DNA from: a virus
Direction: 5' to 3' (one strand)
DNA: 31,392 nucleotides
Virus record (IMG/VR): IMGVR_UViG_3300031539_000190
Location: 1-31,392 of that record
Below the pieces are notes generated by a model. That model was not told where the DNA came from and did no database searches. It saw only the letters and a program-made list of their open reading frames with translations. This document shows positions 5,994-19,157 of this stretch, one piece after another. Numbering within the stretch: position 1 is the first letter of the stretch; each line of letters starts with the position of its first letter. The translations under genes were made by a program, and so were the position numbers.

Positions 5994-6305
5994 TCAGACT
6001 TCCTTGCAAACGACAACTGTTGAATTCTCGATAATCTGTGGAGGTTCAACTGGTTCATAGGTTTTACTGCCATGCAGAATACGATGAGAACCCAGGTTCA
6101 GGGTAACGCTACCACGGAACACCACCTTGTGGGATACTTCACTCTTTAACTGCTGATAGATAGCCCTAGCTTTAGCATCCAGGGGGATTACCTGGGCGAA
6201 TCTCCTCTCCACGAATTTCCAGACTTCTATTTGTCCCAGAGCAGTCTGCGTGATAGTCCTTACTTGTATAGCCACTCTATCTCTTAGTTTATCCGCTAAT
6301 GTCAT
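5994..6305 (-). CDS. Head-tail adaptor (SPP1 gp16/HK97 gp7-like stopper)
   Basis: 103 aa with the usual small all-beta pattern: LRDRVAIQVRTITQTALGQI, VWKFVERRFAQVIPLDAKAR, SHKVVFRGSVTLNLGSHRIL. Typical head-tail joining proteins are 100-115 aa and follow the gp6-like connector, as here. The stop of the upstream connector overlaps its ATG (ATGA-type). It probably closes the connector after DNA packaging. Confidence 0.8.
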   Translation of the reverse strand: MTLADKLRDRVAIQVRTITQTALGQIEVWKFVERRFAQVIPLDAKARAIYQQLKSEVSHKVVFRGSVTLNLGSHRILHGSKTYEPVEPPQIIENSTVVVCKEV

Positions 6306-7057
6306 ATTACGCTCACCCTCAACGAGTCTAATTTCTTCTTAGATGCTTCTGGCAAGCCTTCTGCGTCCTCAACTCTATTTTCGTACCAAGCAGCAACTGC
6401 CCCCAAAACTGCAGCCACAGCGTCGGGTATCAGGGCCTGGGTAGCTCCCCAATCAGCACCATATCCGGCAACGTATGTGACCACGATCTCATAATCCAGT
6501 GGCCAGACCACAAGATGATATATCCTGCCAATAGAAAGCCTTTCGCTCCAGCTTGCAAGGGCAACACCACCAACAGTTACGCTAGTCACATCGATTACTG
6601 GCTGTCGATAGAGTTTCAAGACTTGCTTGTTATCTCCTATGCGGGTTTCGACAATCTCACGCTGAATAAAGGCCCGACCAGTGTACTCCTCTGCTTTCTT
6701 GGTGGCAGCCTCGATAAGCGTTTCCAGTAGATCGTCGTCGTAGCTCTCAAAGGTATTCTCACCAGCAGCATAATCATATGAGACTGTGATACCAGCACCA
6801 ACCCCAGGCTTACCGGCGGTGGTGAAGGTCAATGTAGTTCTCGAGTAAGTGTAATGCGTGGTCTCAGTTTTCAAGACATTGTCTACATATACCCTTAATG
6901 TCCCCTCGATTGGTGCATTGACGAGTGGAAAGGCAACAATGATGTTGTCCCCCACACCAACATACTCAGCATCCACATGCAGATTAGCTGCCGCATCAAC
7001 CCTCAGATAGTTCTTGGCTTGAATCAATGTTACCAATGCTGTATCGCTTAATGCCAT
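6302..7057 (-). CDS. Head-tail connector (gp6-like) with an N-terminal beta insertion
   Basis: 251 aa. Residues 1-20 (LVTLIQAKNYLRVD) and ~105-251 (YDDDLLETLIEAATKKAEEY TG; QPVIDVTSVTVGG; YEIVVTYVAGYG; PDAVAAVLGAVAAWYENR) fit the gp6/phiE125 gp8 connector family, normally about 180-200 aa. Between them lies an extra ~80-residue module of the beta-sandwich kind (GVGDNIIVAFPLVNAPIEGT, LRVYVDNVLKTETTHYTY, FTTAGKPGVGAGITVSYDY). The insert resembles short Ig-like repeats of tail and capsid proteins and might be exposed on the neck. Confidence 0.8.
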   Translation of the reverse strand: MALSDTALVTLIQAKNYLRVDAAANLHVDAEYVGVGDNIIVAFPLVNAPIEGTLRVYVDNVLKTETTHYTYSRTTLTFTTAGKPGVGAGITVSYDYAAGENTFESYDDDLLETLIEAATKKAEEYTGRAFIQREIVETRIGDNKQVLKLYRQPVIDVTSVTVGGVALASWSERLSIGRIYHLVVWPLDYEIVVTYVAGYGADWGATQALIPDAVAAVLGAVAAWYENRVEDAEGLPEASKKKLDSLRVSVI

Positions 7058-8623
7058 TTACTCTACCTTCCTTCCTAGATTATGGACACCTAGTTTTGCT
7101 TTCCCCATGGTGTAGTCAACCTGTGGTCTACCCAAAGTGTAATGAGGCTTTGTCTTGCCTAGGTCGTGAATAGCTGGTGGTTTTGCTATATGGCTGACTA
7201 TTTGAATAATCTCAGAACCAACCGTAATGAGAATAATCTGAATTCTTCCCGTTTCGTCATAGAGAATAACATAAGGATAGACAGCATCTCCACCTTGTTC
7301 TACTAAGATAATCTGCAGGAGCTGTTCACTGAAAAGAGCTTGGTCAAGAGAACCGTGCAAAGCCAAGACAACTTGAAGCCTACCGAGCTCACTCAATATG
7401 TGTGCATCGGATTCTCCCGTGACTGCTAGTGCAATCTGTTCCTTCGCGAGCTCGAGGAAGCGAAAACCGACTACCTTCCCTTGAGTAATGAGCAGAATTT
7501 GTTCTTTGTCTAATTCACTAAAAGTTGCTACATCACTTCTGCCCTGAGGAGCGAGAATAATCTGAAGCCTTCCTGTTTCGTCAATAACGCCAACAGGAAT
7601 GTAGACGTCTGTTCTTCCTTGTGCCGCTAAGATTATCTGAAGTAACTGCTCACTGAAAGTCGCCTTATCAAGGGAACCGTGCAAGCCTAGCACTTCCTGA
7701 AGTTTGCTAAGTTCATTCCATATCGAAGTATCTGTTTTACCCGATATCGCTGCGATAACCTGCTCTTTGCTTACCTCGGACAAAACTGTAGAATCGACAG
7801 AGCCTTGGACCGCAGCAATAACTTGTTCTTTGCCGAGCTCAGGTAGAAGTCTTATGTCTATTCTGCCTTGAGTACCTAGAATGATTTGTTCTCTTGCATC
7901 GAGCAAGGTTGCCGCATCACTTCTAGCTTGAGCCGCGAGAACGATTTGCGTTCTTCCGATTTCAAACCAAGCAGCTGTCTCTACCTTTCCTTGCGATACT
8001 AAAGCAACCTGTAGCTTTGCCGTTTCCTTCCTTGTAGCTATATCACTCTTTGCTTGAACGCCAAGGATAACCTGAAGTCTACCTTTCTCATCATAGGTTT
8101 CTCCTGCTGGCGGTGTGTAATATATCCTTATCTGACAGAAAAAAATGAATGCAGTACGCTGCTCAGAGGAGTCATTATTATAGACAGATATATCTATGCC
8201 AAAGTCGGCATTACCTGCAATATCACTATCCACGAGTCCAGCGTTCCAAGTATCGGCAGCACCACCATAGGTAAAAGTTTCCTTTTCGGTATCCCAATAT
8301 GTCTTTTCCTTTGCGTAGTCATCACCAACCTGCCCAGAGGTCTTTCTCAGGTATAGGGTATCATCCCAAACTTTGTTAGCGAGAGAGGCCGCATGTCTAT
8401 ACTGAACCTCTATGCCGTCTATGGTTGAGCCATCGGGAATATCACCTGTAGTGAAGCCAAAGTTTGTCAGCCTGAGCCAATCGGTGTAGCTTTTAAGAGC
8501 AGGAATACTCACAGCAGCAACATCATCGTCAGTCTTGGCATTATCTGGAGAACCCCATACTGGTTTGCCATCCCTGTCAACAGTTGCTGCTGTCCCTGGA
8601 GCTTTCCAACCAGTTACCGCCAT
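7058..8623 (-). CDS. 521-aa virion protein with about 14 tandem 21-residue repeats
   Basis: Residues 1-175 form a jelly-roll-like module common in phage fibres (LTNFGFTTGDIPDGSTIDGI; YGGAADTWNAGL; QIRIYYTPPA). Residues ~177-475 are about 14 copies of a 21-residue unit with consensus close to [FL]xExGRLQ[VI]ILAxQGRxDxxx. Residues 476-521 contain four shorter units around DLGKTKPH, YTLGRPQVD, YTMGKAKLG and VHNLGRK. No cysteines in the repeats. The gene lies between capsid and connector genes, the place of head fibre or decoration genes. The repeat is shared with the protein at the left edge. I do not recognise the repeat family; a beta-solenoid is a guess. ATG 8623 has AAGGAG ten bases upstream. 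Confidence 0.75.
   Translation of the reverse strand: MAVTGWKAPGTAATVDRDGKPVWGSPDNAKTDDDVAAVSIPALKSYTDWLRLTNFGFTTGDIPDGSTIDGIEVQYRHAASLANKVWDDTLYLRKTSGQVGDDYAKEKTYWDTEKETFTYGGAADTWNAGLVDSDIAGNADFGIDISVYNNDSSEQRTAFIFFCQIRIYYTPPAGETYDEKGRLQVILGVQAKSDIATRKETAKLQVALVSQGKVETAAWFEIGRTQIVLAAQARSDAATLLDAREQIILGTQGRIDIRLLPELGKEQVIAAVQGSVDSTVLSEVSKEQVIAAISGKTDTSIWNELSKLQEVLGLHGSLDKATFSEQLLQIILAAQGRTDVYIPVGVIDETGRLQIILAPQGRSDVATFSELDKEQILLITQGKVVGFRFLELAKEQIALAVTGESDAHILSELGRLQVVLALHGSLDQALFSEQLLQIILVEQGGDAVYPYVILYDETGRIQIILITVGSEIIQIVSHIAKPPAIHDLGKTKPHYTLGRPQVDYTMGKAKLGVHNLGRKVE
7199..8095 (-). repeat. Protein-coding tandem repeat array (14 x ~63 bp)
   Basis: The array encodes units such as DEKGRLQVILGVQAKSD, EIGRTQIVLAAQARSD, ELGKEQVIAAVQGSVD and ELGRLQVVLALHGSLD. 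Two separate places contain the nearly identical block GSLDxAxFSEQLLQIIL, five units apart, and each is followed two units later by an (D)ETGR[LI]QIIL unit. This shows a higher-order duplication of about five units (about 105 residues). Units are diverged at the DNA level, so the array is not recent. Confidence 0.75.
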
Positions 8624-9132: not shown

Positions 9133-9696
9133 TCATTCGGACAAACCAATGAACATTGAACCTTCGAGTTTATCGCCACTGAGCAGCAGTCTATCGGCGC
9201 TGAGTGGTAGAGAGCAGACTAGGTGGTCACCATCTCCATCCTCAGCAGCGGTAATATCCGTGCAGACGAAGATGTTCTTGACCGCGGTAACCCAGTCCTC
9301 GCCAGCTGTCCAGGTAACAGTCTTGCTATCCGCACGATAGTAAGCTGCGGGCTGATTGATGTAGAAGTCCTGGCCTTCCAATCCAGTTCCTCCAGAGATG
9401 ACAGCCTTTCGCTCGTAACCAGACTTGACCAGCTCATCCAGCGTTGCCAACGTGTCTGCTTCAGCAAGTGCCGCCCTCTTATCCAGCCCCAGATAGAGGT
9501 TGGCTGGCGGCGCTCCGTAGAGCGACATTGCCGTGGCGAAGAACGCTGAGAGGATGGCTATCTCACCGGTATCGTGAAGGATATTTCTATCCAACCCGAA
9601 CGGTTCCTCCCACAACATCTGCCACAGGTCATTGACCTTCCTCCAGTGCTTCACGATGAAGCCAGAATGATACTTGAGCATTTGTTTTGTGTTCAC
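9133..9696 (-). CDS. Probable virion structural protein (187 aa)
   Basis: The N-terminus is helical (KYHSGFIVKHWRKVNDLWQM). From residue ~60 it has APPANLYLGLDKRAALAEAD followed by SGYERKAVISGGTGLEGQDF and a C-terminal beta segment with TDITAAEDGDGDHLVCSLPL and a final FIGLSE. The pattern YLGL...GYxRxxV is common in a group of small phage structural proteins annotated as tail fibre or capsid-associated. Placement between head genes favours a head or neck role. No enzymatic residues. Confidence 0.6.
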   Translation of the reverse strand: MNTKQMLKYHSGFIVKHWRKVNDLWQMLWEEPFGLDRNILHDTGEIAILSAFFATAMSLYGAPPANLYLGLDKRAALAEADTLATLDELVKSGYERKAVISGGTGLEGQDFYINQPAAYYRADSKTVTWTAGEDWVTAVKNIFVCTDITAAEDGDGDHLVCSLPLSADRLLLSGDKLEGSMFIGLSE

Positions 9697-9698
9697 TG

Positions 9699-9896
9699 TT
9701 ACCTCCTAGTTTTTCGTTTTTGCTTAATAGGTGGCGTCTCCACCTTAGTCTCACTTGCCCCATCAAGACTTTTATCCTGCATTGCTATTCCAGCCTTACA
9801 CCAGTTCCTGCCTATGTTATCAGGAACGTCGACCACTACACCTGGAGAAAAACCCCCATAGGCTGAGACAATAGGTTTCAGGATTCTTACCCTCAT
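9699..9896 (-). CDS. Small head-region protein, SH3/KOW-like (65 aa)
   Basis: Chosen start ATG 9896 has AAGGTGGTG upstream; a GTG three codons earlier overlaps the RBS. The sequence MRVRILKPIVSAYGGFSPGV, VVDVPDNIGRNWCKAGIAMQ then a basic tail PPIKQKRKTRR matches a widespread small phage protein found next to capsid genes, whose core is a short beta barrel with G...PG..VD..... A head-completion or DNA-binding role is possible. Function not known. Confidence 0.65.
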   Translation of the reverse strand: MRVRILKPIVSAYGGFSPGVVVDVPDNIGRNWCKAGIAMQDKSLDGASETKVETPPIKQKRKTRR

Positions 9897-9927
9897 ATTC
9901 ACCACCTTTTTCTGTGTTGGGGGGAGC

Positions 9928-9957
9928 TTGACTTTTATCCCCCCCTTAGTCTATAAT
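9928..9957 (+). promoter_or_regulatory. Sigma-70-type promoter for the plus-strand HNH gene
   Basis: TTGACT (9928-9933), 18-base spacer, TATAAT (9952-9957). The predicted transcription start, 6-8 bases beyond the -10 box, falls on the ATG at 9964, so the mRNA would be leaderless. No Shine-Dalgarno sequence precedes that ATG. Confidence 0.75.
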
Positions 9958-9963
9958 GAACTT

Positions 9964-10344
9964 ATGAAAACATGCTACATTTGCAAAATCACGAAACCCG
10001 AAAGTGGCTTCCACCATGATGCCTCACGAAAGGACGGCCTTTCAAATAAATGCCGTCTTTGTGAAGATAAACGCCGCCTAGAACGGCTAGGCCGACTAAG
10101 AGAACATTATCGCCTTCTCACACTTGAACCAAAAAGGAAGGGATGTTATATCTGTGGTGAGAAAGACCCTCTAGTTTTGGATATGCACCATAAAGAGGGA
10201 AAAGTCTTCGGCATAAGCAACATAACAGCTACGCATAGTCGAGTCATTCCTCCCCTTCCTGTTTTCCTAAAGGAACTTAAAAAATGTATCCCGCTCTGTG
10301 CAAATTGCCACCGTAGGGTTACGAGGGGAGCGATAAAACTATAA
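9964..10344 (+). CDS. HNH (homing-type) endonuclease on the opposite strand
   Basis: Start chosen at ATG 9964 because it lies at the predicted transcription start; the product is 126 aa. The N-terminus has a zinc finger (CYIC, x22, CRLC). The C-terminal half has a treble-clef HNH nuclease: CYICGEKDPLVLDMHHKEGK with the catalytic HH, then CIPLCANCHRR with the second metal pair and final His. It is the only clear plus-strand gene, has its own promoter, and is bracketed by an 11-bp inverted repeat. All this points to a self-standing mobile homing endonuclease inserted in the late operon rather than a packaging HNH. Confidence 0.88.
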   Translation: MKTCYICKITKPESGFHHDASRKDGLSNKCRLCEDKRRLERLGRLREHYRLLTLEPKRKGCYICGEKDPLVLDMHHKEGKVFGISNITATHSRVIPPLPVFLKELKKCIPLCANCHRRVTRGAIKL

Positions 10345-11225: not shown

Positions 11226-11840
11226 TTATTTTTTACTACCCCAGAATAACCTCAAATCCTCACGAGTTTTTACCCCATGACATTCAAGGCAGAGGGGACG
11301 GTAGTTATCCCACTTATCTATGCCACCATTGCATAGCGCTAGAATATGGTCTATCTGGTACGATCTCTTATATAGTTCTCCACACATCGCACAAGATTCT
11401 TTCAGGATGTGGAGCAATTCCACTCTAGCTGCAAAGAGGTCAGGATCAGTAGAGCGCTCCCTGCGTTTAGCAAAGCCCTTAGCTATTGCTGCTTGGCCTC
11501 CAGAAGAATTACGATAGGCTACTTGATAGGTTGCCATGTATACTTTCCCTCTAGGGGTTTCAATGTAGCGCCGCTGTGCGTCTAAGTGAGCAGCCCTACC
11601 TTCAGGAGTTGCCATACGAATTGCAATACAGGCTGTATGGGAGGCTTTGCGCTTTGGTGTTTGCTCATAGACTAGGCGCTGTGCAATACGCTTTGGTGAT
11701 TTAGCCCTAGCTGCTTCGAAGTCTGCTCGATTAGCAACCCTGCAAATATCGCAGAATTGGCGATGATTACGAATTTGTTCATCAGAGAAATCCTCACCGC
11801 ATCGAGTGCAAATAGTTTGTTCAACTAGAGCTAACACCAT
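11226..11840 (-). CDS. HNH homing endonuclease next to the capsid gene
   Basis: 204 aa, ATG 11840 with GGGGAGGAA upstream. The N-terminus carries a zinc finger (CTRCGEDFSDEQIRNHRQFC then DIC). The middle is basic with repeated short motifs (TPKRKASHTACIAIRMATPE; TPRGKVYMATYQVAYRN) resembling DNA-contact repeats of homing enzymes. The C-terminus is a full HNH: CAMCGELYKRSYQIDHILAL, NGGIDKWDNYRPLCLECHGV, KTREDL. It lies between major capsid and decoration genes, a common target of free-standing homing endonucleases in phages. Its presence within the operon means it is co-transcribed with late genes. Confidence 0.88.
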   Translation of the reverse strand: MVLALVEQTICTRCGEDFSDEQIRNHRQFCDICRVANRADFEAARAKSPKRIAQRLVYEQTPKRKASHTACIAIRMATPEGRAAHLDAQRRYIETPRGKVYMATYQVAYRNSSGGQAAIAKGFAKRRERSTDPDLFAARVELLHILKESCAMCGELYKRSYQIDHILALCNGGIDKWDNYRPLCLECHGVKTREDLRLFWGSKK

Positions 11841-11897: not shown

Positions 11898-13100
11898 TCA
11901 GGCAATATTCTTCAGAAGGACTATTGCCTTGTTGGCCGGCTTTATTGCCCCGCCGCCTACTCTCTTGTGGACCTTGAAGCCCACCAGACCAGACTCAGCG
12001 TATAGCTCAACAAGTCTCTGGAGAGTAATGCCAGCCCGGTCGATGATGCGGTATCCAGCCTTGATGTCGCCGAAGATGGCCACTACCGAGGTATCCCCAG
12101 TAAGAATATCGAGGTCGTCCTGGTTGTAGATTGGCCTGCCCAGGAATGTGTTGGGTCTACCCTCTATAATGCTCGGCTGCCACAGGAACTGACCACTGTA
12201 ACTAACGGCAGGAGTGCTCGCAACAGTGCCAACAGCCCTCAGCTGCCTTATGGCCAACTCAGTAGCGGAGTTCACTATCCAGACACCGTTCCTGCGGTGC
12301 TGGGCGGGACAGGCATACATTACTGCCATAAAGTCCTCAATGGCGGCAGTAAGGGTTGTGCTCACATCCTCACCGGCAGCAACAAGGATGGGCTCTATGG
12401 TGATACCCATAGGCTCTTCCGAGTCATGGCCGGCACCCTTGATGAATGCCAAATCTTCAGCCTCGGCTATTGCTCTAGTGAACGATTCGGCTAGAAGTGC
12501 CTGAAGGTTGAAGTCGCTATCTGCCAGCTCATCCTCACCAATCTTGGCCAGACCATAGAGGTCTTCGGCATACTGATAAGTAGGAGTACCGGGAACTTGA
12601 CTGGATTCAGGAATTTCAGCTCCCGTCTCCAGTTTACCCCATCCCACTGCTACCTCACTGATGCTGCGAACCTTCAGCCGGTCTTTGCCAATTGACCGAA
12701 CAGTCGCCAATGGGCGGATAACAGTTATCTTGGGAAGGGTACGCTCAATCTCGGTTTCGAGTTCTGGAGTAATGAGAATTTGCCCGGTGGTATCCTCTAC
12801 CAGAGCCTTCCGTTCCTCTGGAGTTAGACCCGTGTCGCCGTGCCTCACGAATTTGAAGAAAGCAGCGGTGCGAGCCTTAGACTCTTCAGTCTGCGCATCC
12901 GGGCTACCAGGTGCCGGTACGGTTTGGCGCTGGAGTTTGACCTCCAACTCATCAATGCGCTCATTGCACCTGTCAATGGTCGCCTTGGTTTCAGCCATAG
13001 GTGTACCCAATTTCTTGGTTTCATCCATAGCCTGGTCATATTTCTTGTGCAATTCGGCTACTGCTTCTTGCACAAGTTCAGGTAATGATTTGTCACTCAT
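11898..13100 (-). CDS. Major capsid protein, HK97 fold
   Basis: 400 aa. Residues ~1-65 form a charged coiled coil (AVAELHKKYDQAMDETKKLG; IDRCNERIDELEVKLQRQ), the delta/scaffold domain that the prohead protease removes. The mature part starts near residues 75-110 and shows the HK97 pattern: TTGQILITPELETEIERTLP, LRPLA-like ITVIRPLATVRSI, VGWGKLETGAEIPESS, ALLAESFTRAIAEAEDLAFI KGAG, LWQPSIIEGRPNTFLGRPIY and a final VGFKVHKRVGGGAIKPANKA. ATG 13100 follows GGGAGGTAAAC-like spacing (GGAGG upstream). Co-encoded with its protease directly upstream. Confidence 0.95.
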   Translation of the reverse strand: MSDKSLPELVQEAVAELHKKYDQAMDETKKLGTPMAETKATIDRCNERIDELEVKLQRQTVPAPGSPDAQTEESKARTAAFFKFVRHGDTGLTPEERKALVEDTTGQILITPELETEIERTLPKITVIRPLATVRSIGKDRLKVRSISEVAVGWGKLETGAEIPESSQVPGTPTYQYAEDLYGLAKIGEDELADSDFNLQALLAESFTRAIAEAEDLAFIKGAGHDSEEPMGITIEPILVAAGEDVSTTLTAAIEDFMAVMYACPAQHRRNGVWIVNSATELAIRQLRAVGTVASTPAVSYSGQFLWQPSIIEGRPNTFLGRPIYNQDDLDILTGDTSVVAIFGDIKAGYRIIDRAGITLQRLVELYAESGLVGFKVHKRVGGGAIKPANKAIVLLKNIA

Positions 13101-15632: not shown

Positions 15633-15839
15633 CTACTTCCTTAGGCATCTCCCATTAGCATCAAGGTGGACATCCATGGCTTTGCATTGGCCTCTCTGGT
15701 TCCACCCACAGCTGATATTATCACAGGCTAAACTCACCTTCCCAAGTTTGCATCCTCCACCTTCTATACGGTGGGGACACTTCTTTGCGTGGCAGACATA
15801 GCGCCCAGCGATTCTGACTGCTTCGTGGCACTCGGTCAT
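15633..15839 (-). CDS. Cys-rich small protein, DUF1540-like (68 aa)
   Basis: Eight cysteines in 68 residues: YVCHAKKCPHRIEGGGCKLG and then LACDNISCGWNQRGQCKAMD, ending in GRCLRK. The second half resembles the DUF1540 pattern C....C.WN....C.A..I...... Probably metal binding. ATG 15839 overlaps the portal stop (ATGA), so it is translationally coupled to the portal-methyltransferase gene. Function unknown. Confidence 0.75.
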   Translation of the reverse strand: MTECHEAVRIAGRYVCHAKKCPHRIEGGGCKLGKVSLACDNISCGWNQRGQCKAMDVHLDANGRCLRK

Positions 15840-17854
15840 TTCGGTTCTCCTGCTTTCTTGAGTAGCGAAACAATGATAAGGTGTTTCTCTCCAAACTCAT
15901 CAAAGCTTTCCTCTTGTTCAGTGTATATGTCAAGCACGGTGAAGTTCAAACCCTTGACAAGCCCCAAATACCCATCTTCAGTGATGACCTCTTCTCGCTT
16001 GCCATCAGCAAACTGTGTGTCCCCATATATGTACACAAATGCAAGTCCATCCGTCTTTAATACCCTGTTAACTTCAGGCATAGATTTTTGTAGGTCAGTG
16101 GCGTGCAACACAGACAAGGAGAATACGGACTCAAATTGCCCATCGTCGAATGGCAACTTCTCGGCATTAGCCACCTTGAAATCAATCGATACCTCAGCCT
16201 TCTCCGCGTTTTCCTGAGCAAGTTTAATAGCACTAGGAGCCACGTCAATGGCTGTCACATTCAAACCACCTCTAGCAAAGAAGATAGAATCACGGCCATT
16301 ACCACAACCAATTTCGAGTACTGAGGTGTAGAAAGCATAGAGAGATAACTCCTTTCTAAAGTCCTGAGCAAACAGTGACGGCGTTAAATCTATGGCCCAG
16401 TGAGGGGGATCTTCTGAGTATGCCTCTTCCCAGTCCCGGGGCGATAATGCCTTAACGGTCTTCAGCGCCTTCTCAATGGCTTTAATCTCATCATCATAAA
16501 GCGGTTTAATCTTCTTGGTTACTACTCCCCACCAGCCAACACGCCGCAGGTCTATCCGCTTCCAGTGGATTGTTTTCTGCTCTTCAGTTGAAAGGTTGAG
16601 AGCTTTGGTCATCATCTTCTGTGGCTCCGCCGGTGGTACCGAACCAGTCGGCAATAACATCATGGGCAAATAGCCAGTATCCCAGCCGGGGAACTCGCTG
16701 AACCCCATCTCCAATCTCTCGTTTATCTGGTCGAAGGGGACTCCCATGGACCAGAGGTTCTTAGCCTGGTCAACCTTCTTGGTAAAGTCCTCTCTAAGAG
16801 CAACTACCTTTGAAGTATCATAGGAGATTGTGATACTAGGATACATCGGCGCAACCCTGAGACCAAGCGTTGATTTGATGTCATCGAGTAATGGGATAAC
16901 AACATCCTCGTATAGTGCTTTCCTCGCTTCTGCCATGTTGGCATAACTGGAGTGCTCCATATCCCCTAAGAATATCGAGCTAATCCCGAAGGCTCCGGCA
17001 ATGTCACGCTTGTTGGTAAGACGGGACTTGATGAAGTCCATCTCCACCGGGGTCAGGCTCATCTGGTGCCACTTCCCCCCAGCTACCACCCAGGGCATAC
17101 GCCTCTTTACTTTGGCTAAGTAGCGCTCTTGAACCTGTCGGTCTGCTTCCTCATACTGCTCATTTGTTAAAGCATCAGTTTCGAAAACACCATCTGGGAT
17201 GCCCCTGTTCTGCATGCTTATCTTCTGCGTGTCCTGCGCCTCGTTATCAGTGTCGACAGTCCTTGATATCGCTTGAAGAGGCCCAATTCCCCAATAGGGA
17301 TTACCGGGGTTGATCATCATAAAATGGATAAACTGCTCCGGTGGCACGATTTGCTGTCTACCGTCTATACTCGTTACCTCATAGCCTTTGAGCCATTGCC
17401 CCGGCACATCTGATGGGATTGGATGGATAAGGTCCGGCATGCAAACCCAGTATTCCCGGGGTCGGCCCCCTACAATAATCGGCTGAATCAATGCGTTACC
17501 GACTAACAATTGATGAGCAATAATGAGCTCCATATTGTCTTGCCCGGAGAACTGCGGGTTGGGATTTGCCCAGGCCTTGCTGAAGGGATGGTCAAGAATA
17601 ATCTCACCCTCTTTATCAAGAGCTACCCAGGGAATGGCTGAAGCCGCTTGCACAATCACCCTGATGGCACGATAGACATCCCCTGATATTTTATATCCTT
17701 CTCGAACAGCCTTGCGAACTGTTAAGTCAGTATAAATCGGAATGTCAGCGGTCTGCACAGACAGTATTTGATACGGGCCCAAGGAAGTGCCTCTACCATT
17801 TGCCTTTGGGAAAATAGCAGAAGCGACTTTGCTGCGTAATCTATTCATTACCAT
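15836..17854 (-). CDS. Portal protein fused to a class I SAM methyltransferase
   Basis: Start ATG 17854 (MVMNRLRSKVASAIFPKANG) just after the terminase stop; 672 aa in one uninterrupted frame. Residues ~1-410 are an HK97-type portal: SGDVYRAIRVIVQAASAIPW, HFMMINPGNPYWGIGPLQAI, LTNKRDIAGAFGISSIFLGD, and LREDFTKKVDQAKNLWSMGV. Residues ~415-470 are a helical linker (TEEQKTIHWKRIDLRR). Residues ~473-672 are a methyltransferase: motif I VLEIGCGNGRDS at about 512, acidic loop VTAIDVAPSAIKLAQENAEK, motif around KLPFDDGQFESVFSLSVLHA, and VLKTDGLAFVYIYG. No NPPY/SPPY, so the substrate is more likely protein or a small molecule than DNA. Portal proteins usually end near 400-450 aa. Confidence 0.92.
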   Translation of the reverse strand: MVMNRLRSKVASAIFPKANGRGTSLGPYQILSVQTADIPIYTDLTVRKAVREGYKISGDVYRAIRVIVQAASAIPWVALDKEGEIILDHPFSKAWANPNPQFSGQDNMELIIAHQLLVGNALIQPIIVGGRPREYWVCMPDLIHPIPSDVPGQWLKGYEVTSIDGRQQIVPPEQFIHFMMINPGNPYWGIGPLQAISRTVDTDNEAQDTQKISMQNRGIPDGVFETDALTNEQYEEADRQVQERYLAKVKRRMPWVVAGGKWHQMSLTPVEMDFIKSRLTNKRDIAGAFGISSIFLGDMEHSSYANMAEARKALYEDVVIPLLDDIKSTLGLRVAPMYPSITISYDTSKVVALREDFTKKVDQAKNLWSMGVPFDQINERLEMGFSEFPGWDTGYLPMMLLPTGSVPPAEPQKMMTKALNLSTEEQKTIHWKRIDLRRVGWWGVVTKKIKPLYDDEIKAIEKALKTVKALSPRDWEEAYSEDPPHWAIDLTPSLFAQDFRKELSLYAFYTSVLEIGCGNGRDSIFFARGGLNVTAIDVAPSAIKLAQENAEKAEVSIDFKVANAEKLPFDDGQFESVFSLSVLHATDLQKSMPEVNRVLKTDGLAFVYIYGDTQFADGKREEVITEDGYLGLVKGLNFTVLDIYTEQEESFDEFGEKHLIIVSLLKKAGEPK

Positions 17855-17855
17855 T

Positions 17856-19157
17856 TTATCCAAACCTCGTAAGTTTTTCTGGCTTTTCAAGCATTAGCTC
17901 AGTTATCGCCCAGACTAGGGCATCTAGCCGGTCAGGTGATTTGTCCCCTGGTACCCACTCGCACATCTGGTCTTCTAACTCCGAAAAGAATCCGACATGA
18001 TGAACTCTTCCCTGCTCATATAAGGCTGACACCGGCTCGGCCCTGATTGCCTTGCCCCGGCTGGCATGGACTTTCTTGAAAGACACCGACTTATCAATTA
18101 TCCTGATGATGCTCTCGACCATATCCCCGCCGAAGTTCACTTCGCCCACTATCCGGTCAGCCTTGAAGTTATAGTAACCACTCACCGCAGCGGTCGCCCA
18201 CTTCTCAGGAGTTCCGCTCAGTGTCAGGTCGGCCAAGACAAAGGCTTCTTGCCGGTCAGCAACTTGCGCTACGCCGGCAACCACAATCCCTGTCGATGAC
18301 GAGGTATCGCTATCGGTTCCTTGTGGGTCTATGGCCACCACTATTCTTTTCAGCTCAGGATACTTCCGCACCCTCAGCTCATCTATCTTAGCTCGCTCCC
18401 ATAGAGCGTCTGGGTTATCGTCGAGTATCTCACCAGCCAGCTCTTGGCGCCCAAGCCTAGTGCCTTCATACTTCCTCAGTATATAGCGCAAGAAGTCTGG
18501 AGCCAGGTTGTCTTTATTCTCCAGTGTATGCCCTCGAGTAACCGCCGTCCTCTCATCTGCTATTAAGTCCTTGATGACTTTAATGGGCTTCGGCGTGGTG
18601 GTAACAACTGCCTGAGGGTGATTGCCAATCCTCAGACCGAACATCAAGTTATCCCAGGAATCCTTTGGGTATTTGAACTTGGCCAGCTCATCTACCCACG
18701 CCTTCTGATGCTGCGGTCCCCTGAGCTGCTCTGGCTCATCCCCGGAATAGATTATGCCCAGCACTCCGTTCGGCCATATCAGCCGTCTCTTCGATGGTTC
18801 GTATTCTGGCATGAACCAGGGGGGGCTGATATTGAGTATAGCCGAGTCGCCGACCTCAACCATGGTGTCCCGGACGTCGGCCTTAGTCTGCCCTACCAGT
18901 GCTATCGGGCTAAATCCTTCCCTCGCCCACTTATTGATTAGCTCGGCGCCAGCCCGTGTCTTCCCACCGCCTCGACCTGATAAAAGAAGCCAGATATACC
19001 AGTCCCAATCGGGAGGGAGCTGCTTAGGTCTAGCCCAGAATTCCCAGTCATATAGGAGAGATTCAGCTTCCTTGTTCGTCAGGCTCTTGAGTGTCTTCTG
19101 CCTCTCCTGTTCTGGCAGCAAGGCGATTGATTGCGCTAATGAGTTTTTGTTTGACAT
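17856..19157 (-). CDS. Terminase large subunit (TerL)
   Basis: 433 aa from ATG 19157. Near the N-terminus KEAESLLYDWEFWARPKQLP leads into Walker A LLLSGRGGGKTRAGAEL (about residues 58-74), then Walker B-like KAWVDELAKF and the coupling motif VVTTTPKP. The RNase H-like nuclease has VVAIDPQGTDSDTSSSTG with its first Asp, FVLADLTLSGTPEKW with the second, and SPDRLDALVWAITEL with the third. It cuts and pumps DNA into the procapsid through the portal. The gene begins inside the small subunit gene; the ~95-nt overlap is larger than usual, but the N-terminal part is conserved in the family, so the start looks right. Confidence 0.95.
   Translation of the reverse strand: MSNKNSLAQSIALLPEQERQKTLKSLTNKEAESLLYDWEFWARPKQLPPDWDWYIWLLLSGRGGGKTRAGAELINKWAREGFSPIALVGQTKADVRDTMVEVGDSAILNISPPWFMPEYEPSKRRLIWPNGVLGIIYSGDEPEQLRGPQHQKAWVDELAKFKYPKDSWDNLMFGLRIGNHPQAVVTTTPKPIKVIKDLIADERTAVTRGHTLENKDNLAPDFLRYILRKYEGTRLGRQELAGEILDDNPDALWERAKIDELRVRKYPELKRIVVAIDPQGTDSDTSSSTGIVVAGVAQVADRQEAFVLADLTLSGTPEKWATAAVSGYYNFKADRIVGEVNFGGDMVESIIRIIDKSVSFKKVHASRGKAIRAEPVSALYEQGRVHHVGFFSELEDQMCEWVPGDKSPDRLDALVWAITELMLEKPEKLTRFG

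Follow-up and report, generated by a model that had tools for sequence, protein, structure and literature searches.

The window analysed here is the whole of a 31,392-base IMG/VR virus record, whose minus strand carries the head-to-tail module of a tailed phage. Genes for terminase, portal, head morphogenesis, protease and an HK97-type major capsid protein stand upstream, followed by an HNH endonuclease gene, three genes of unknown kind, the repeat gene studied here, a head-tail adaptor gene and a head closure gene, and then by genes for tail completion, a tail terminator, an Ig-domain tail protein, a tape measure and Dit. The major capsid protein shares 42–46% identity with its counterparts in Silence (a Bacillus phage), GBK2 (a Geobacillus phage) and a phage of Parageobacillus. 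The parts of the repeat gene and the features around it are collected in Table 1; "lectin-like" is our own reading of an N-terminal domain that gave no family match. Two other features of the module are worth recording: the HNH endonuclease gene lies inside the structural module, right after the major capsid gene, and residues 522–627 of the portal ORF match PHROGs labelled methyltransferase (phrog_22502, E 5.9e-18), which is unusual in a portal.

Table 1. Positions in the window of the repeat gene, its parts and surrounding features
Feature	Position	Strand	Remark
Head closure Hc1, the next neck gene	5994..6305	(-)	phrog_25 E 1.7e-8; Pfam Phage_HCP E 2.3e-7
Head-tail adaptor (neck 1) gene	6302..7057	(-)	phrog_442 E 2.7e-19; Pfam Phage_connect_1 E 1e-5
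TAA of the repeat gene, then directly, in frame, ATG of the adaptor gene	7055..7060	(-)	sequence read directly
Repeat gene	8623..7058	(-)	ORF with ATG start, 521 aa
C-terminal foot with short LG[KR]-containing repeats, residues 477-521	7061..7195	(-)	putative anchor
14 tandem ~21-residue units, residues 177-476	7196..8095	(-)	stalk
N-terminal beta-rich, lectin-like domain, residues 1-176	8096..8623	(-)	putative distal binding domain, variable part
187-aa conserved neighbour	9133..9696	(-)	also 5' of the repeat gene in L004, L061/L076
HNH endonuclease gene	11226-11840	(-)
Major capsid gene	11898-13100	(-)
Portal ORF	15836-17890	(-)

The repeat protein and its junction with the adaptor gene

The stalk is built of units of 21 residues (nine), 22 residues (two), 24 residues (two) and 19 residues (one), with a consensus of about F-x-E-[LT]-[GA]-K-L-Q-[IV]-[IV]-L-A-x-Q-G-x-x-D-x-A-T. 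As autocorrelation of residues 179–521 with BLOSUM62 shows, there are peaks at lag 21 (z 8.9) and at lag 108 (z 10.2), compared with a top z of 4.5 at any lag in 300 shuffles. The 108-residue spacing corresponds to 5 × 21 + 3, and units 7–9 match units 12–14 at 63% protein and 66% DNA identity across 60 residues. Because the copies have diverged to this extent, the five-unit duplication is old rather than a product of recent slippage. The foot carries a separate short repeat, DLGKTKPHYTLGRPQVDYTMGKAKLGVHNLGRKVE (within 7195..7061), and a matching foot is seen in L004 and in L076/L008. The sequence-only reading of this DNA had described about 14 tandem 21-residue units, a five-unit higher-order duplication and a distinct LGK/LGR repeat at the C-terminus, and each of these features is present as described. 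Its account of the protein holds for the repeat but left out the 176-residue N-terminal domain encoded by the same ORF.

The repeat had also been called undescribed, which agrees with the searches of Pfam, PHROG and PDB sequences. The repeat region gives no match over the cut-off in Pfam (best sub-cutoff score tRNA_anti-codon, 19.8 of 27 bits) or in PHROGs (best E 0.14), and phmmer finds no relative among PDB sequences (best E 0.23); the family is likewise not described in the literature on tandem-repeat neck fibres within the library searched. Pfam matches to OB-fold, PHP and DUF421 were below the cut-off, were located on the repeats, and were rejected. A unit-profile HMM, for which part of the window and L004 units served as the training set, identifies 14 domains in the window protein and 31–32 in each of the untrained L040 and L041 proteins. 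AlphaFold2 returned no usable fold, with a pLDDT of 35.3 for the full-length protein and 36.6 for the repeat alone with fragments of relatives. In both runs DSSP assigns mostly short strands, about two per unit, and almost no helix (pLDDT 35–37), and from these strands a solenoid or stacked-strand fibre is plausible, although the confidence of both models is much too low for the strands to carry weight.

Since the TAA of the repeat gene abuts the adaptor ATG in frame, the two genes are one stop codon from a fused form. The corresponding genes overlap in L076, and in L004 a single base separates stop and start. The adaptor, a putative attachment ring, bears before its core an extra N-terminal DUF2460/tail-fibre-like beta domain (residues 47–97, DUF2460 E 1.7e-4). 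Fibre-like PHROG matches occur at the same place in the adaptors of L006 and L076. The 187-aa neighbour on the 5' side of the repeat gene, for which searches of Pfam and PHROG gave no match, is extremely conserved, with a dN/dS of 0.045 against L004.

Relatives of the repeat and exchange of the N-terminal domain

The window repeat, with ETGKLQxILAxQGxxD as the motif of its family, is found in seven other IMG/VR contigs, in arrays of 6 to ~40 units. Beside the 14 units of the window there are 11 in L004, 9–10 in L061 and L076, which are nearly identical to each other, 6 in each of L008 and L082, and about 40 in each of L040 and L041. The L008 and L082 arrays are cut by contig ends and come from one sample, and they are possibly the two ends of one gene. 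The L040 and L041 proteins (1,061–1,062 aa, 65% mutual identity) are nearly all repeat, with 40–44 HMM hits. Wherever that side is visible, the repeat gene in the relatives stands directly before an adaptor gene. In L004, L076 and L008 it is followed by the adaptor gene known from the window; the gene that follows in L040 and L041 resembles a head-tail adaptor PHROG (E 1e-3 and 4e-4), with unnamed families matching more strongly. No match was obtained when viral contigs were scanned with the full ORF as a single protein. A DNA pattern scan of the viral contigs gave 35 stretches, the majority of them single-unit chance or frame matches, and a pattern scan of genome contigs, with a pattern that is narrow, gave 8 stretches and no real arrays.

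The repeat gene is an optional addition, because it is absent from several related phages. L005, the adaptor of which is 68% identical to that of the window, has neither a repeat gene nor any other large gene between the capsid and adaptor genes, and in the more distant Silence and GBK2 only small genes are found there.

The N-terminal domain has changed more than the stalk and foot. Between the window and L004 the stalk and foot are 78% identical, compared with about 33% for the N-terminal domain, and in L004 this domain is followed by an extra stretch that is lectin-like and fn3-like (both labels weak). The N-terminal domain of L076 is quite different from that of the window, and L082 carries another again, although the L076 and L082 arrays are near-identical. 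The foot is retained in L004, L076 and L008 though their N-terminal domains differ. The converse exchange is also observed, with an L076-type N-terminal domain in L081, L084 and L086 mounted on arrays of other sequence and a period of about 18–22. Against L004, dN/dS is 0.28 for the repeat and foot and 0.21 for the adaptor, while synonymous sites in the N-terminal domain are saturated. These values indicate purifying selection on the stalk and foot and mark the N-terminal domain as the changing part. Relative to the window, L004 is without one unit and one three-unit block. Since identity is lower between the duplication copies (63%) than between the window and L004 (78%), the sequences suggest that L004 probably lost these units.

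Adaptor fusions and a possible wider class of arrays

Two podophages from Manatee Spring with circular genomes, MW202473 and MW202478, have an N-terminal domain, a 22-residue tandem array and an adaptor joined in one chain (UOF77207, 753 aa, L002, and UOF77486, 652 aa, L003, respectively). The window N-terminal domain is homologous to those of the fusions (33.7% and 32.3%, E 1e-10 and 2e-10), the arrays have a clear 22-residue period (z 10.3 and 13.1), and the adaptor part matches phrog_394 (E 1.2e-35 and 3.1e-36) and, for L002, the Carin1 connector 8ck1_E (E 1.6e-17). A sister phage, MW202738, has a 249-aa adaptor that is 43.6% identical and is without the extension. The same order of domain, repeat and adaptor is seen with separate genes in L040/L041, and with a domain-plus-repeat gene beside the adaptor gene in the window, L004 and L076. 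The fusions are single polypeptides. Because their repeat sequence is unrelated and their adaptor is of the phrog_394 type rather than phrog_442, the argument drawn from them rests on what they share with the window protein, namely the homologous N-terminal domain and an architecture of tandem array and adaptor coupling.

An IMG/VR scan with the N-terminal domain extends this further. Eighty loci were kept, one of which (L063) is the L004 contig, and the other 79 were analysed. Tandem arrays (period 18–24, z 5 or more) are present in 19 of the 41 loci that have at least 80 residues after the domain, the periods being mostly 20–22 and in 12 of the 19 equal to 20; the period control, a rough one in which non-coding frames and a few neighbouring repeat ORFs are counted, gave 10 of 372 other ORFs. 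The window repeat HMM does not recognise the wider-class arrays that were tested, the best E being 0.2 once the true relatives are set aside. In L110, L113 and L124 an adaptor gene comes directly after unrelated 20–21-residue arrays. Other neighbours follow in two loci, namely unknown, holin-like and portal genes in L106 and a minor-tail-like gene in L163; the class of domain plus array is therefore not confined to the neck.

We put forward only tentatively, and with less than even confidence, the idea that these loci represent a broad class of phage appendage, in which a lectin-like domain sits on arrays of ~20–22 residues that are unrelated in sequence but keep their period, so that one stalk geometry would be rebuilt from freely changing sequence, and which at the neck would either plug into the adaptor ring or be fused with it. 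If so, the stalk fold would become a clear structural question, given a near-constant period across sequences that are unrelated.

Short repeats of ~10–13 residues also end the arrays in L084 (6001–7908), L110 (1790–4816) and L106 (7001–10222), and these feet, for example RKVNVVTCQKRKVNTVTTQKRKVRVITGE, have no common sequence. L086 carries a second ORF (9154–10044, plus strand) with RSSTDTRAALxL repeats two ORFs before its adaptor gene, and this ORF begins with short TEFGR repeats that resemble the DEFGY start of L040/L041.

Placement of the protein and comparison with known systems

The sequence-only reading had proposed a head fibre or neck appendage. Context supports a virion appendage, and of the two sites the evidence favours the neck, at the head-tail adaptor, because the adaptor gene is adjacent in the window and in its relatives L004, L076 and L008, as it is in the independent L040/L041 and, beside different arrays, in L110, L113 and L124, and because of the two podophage fusions. 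As the class is not neck-confined, the placement of the window protein itself rests on its own neighbour and on the fusions: it is encoded beside an adaptor gene, and a homologous domain is fused with one. On balance we consider it somewhat probable that the repeat protein is an auxiliary neck fibre of the virion, with its C-terminus on the adaptor ring and its binding domain directed outward.

Placement on the head itself appears unlikely. A fibre or decoration whose foot binds the major capsid protein, with fibres studding the head, would fit the site of the gene in the head module, where further structural-type genes separate it from the capsid gene. It would also fit L006 and L007 (adaptors 57% and 56% identical to that of the window), which hold other variable proteins in the slot, without the repeat, one of them with Laminin_G_3. 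However, every relative that bears the repeat has the adaptor gene as its nearest neighbour, and it is the adaptor, not a capsid protein, that takes part in the fusions. Less likely still is a tail fibre or tail-shaft protein that is encoded in the head-neck module by chance. The N-terminal domain and similar arrays do occur near tail, lysis or portal genes (L106 and L163), but the tail genes of the window are all 3' of the adaptor gene, and the tight coupling is with the adaptor. The absence of the gene from L005, GBK2 and Silence would also suit a protein that is no lasting part of the virion, whether it acts in assembly or is released at lysis. This we regard as the least probable of the explanations, and improbable in itself, since two phages have the equivalent module covalently in the adaptor, a permanent virion protein.

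For the neck fibre, we infer presence in the virion and an oligomeric state, along with the arrangement that follows. The C-terminal foot and the end of the array would dock on the adaptor ring encoded by the next gene, possibly at the extra beta domain of the adaptor, and the 14 units would form an all-beta stalk. The N-terminal beta domain would point outward and make weak, many-copy contacts with host-surface glycans; its exchange and fast divergence at the sequence level suggest such a host-binding role. Gain or loss of units would alter the length of the stalk, and exchange of the N-terminal domain would alter the target. If this is true, large unannotated head-neck repeat genes of uncultivated phages acquire a testable identity with a named attachment ring, and reach (unit number) and target (N-terminal domain) would change in a modular way.

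T4 fibritin is a trimeric coiled coil, and a PDB sequence search reveals no resemblance between it and the window protein. These whiskers are neck-attached fibres (PMC10966104), as is also proposed for the window protein. In function, the closest known structures are the neck passage structure (NPS) of lactococcal phages (PMC6669499) and the neck fibres of Anabaena phage A-1(L) (PMC10966104). The NPS of 936 and P335 phages are neck collar fibres in which a stalk bears carbohydrate-binding domains that can be exchanged, and only part of the phages in the group have them (PMC6669499); in these respects the proposed fibre of the window would be similar. In the NPS a BppU-like ring domain at the N-terminus is conserved, the stalk is a predicted coiled coil and the binding domains at the C-terminus vary (PMC6669499), whereas the polarity of the window protein is reversed, with the variable part N-terminal and the conserved foot C-terminal, and its stalk is a ~21-residue repeat for which the low-confidence models show almost no helix. 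Indeed, a conserved N-terminal domain of the BppU-like type is not what the window protein has, as its N-terminus is the less conserved part (about 33% vs 78% for stalk and foot) and is replaced in L076 and L082.

The A-1(L) fibres (gp82/gp81/gp80) are attached to the neck ring and have a repetitive shaft and a larger distal domain with a carbohydrate-binding module (PMC10966104), and the proposed neck-ring fibre of the window would likewise combine a repetitive shaft with a distal domain. The A-1(L) shaft consists of about 14 copies of a separate protein from its own operon (PMC10966104), whereas the window repeat lies within one chain, encoded beside the adaptor gene. In the Milano neck, adaptor (neck 1) proteins can bear a peripheral beta-sandwich domain (PMC10491603).
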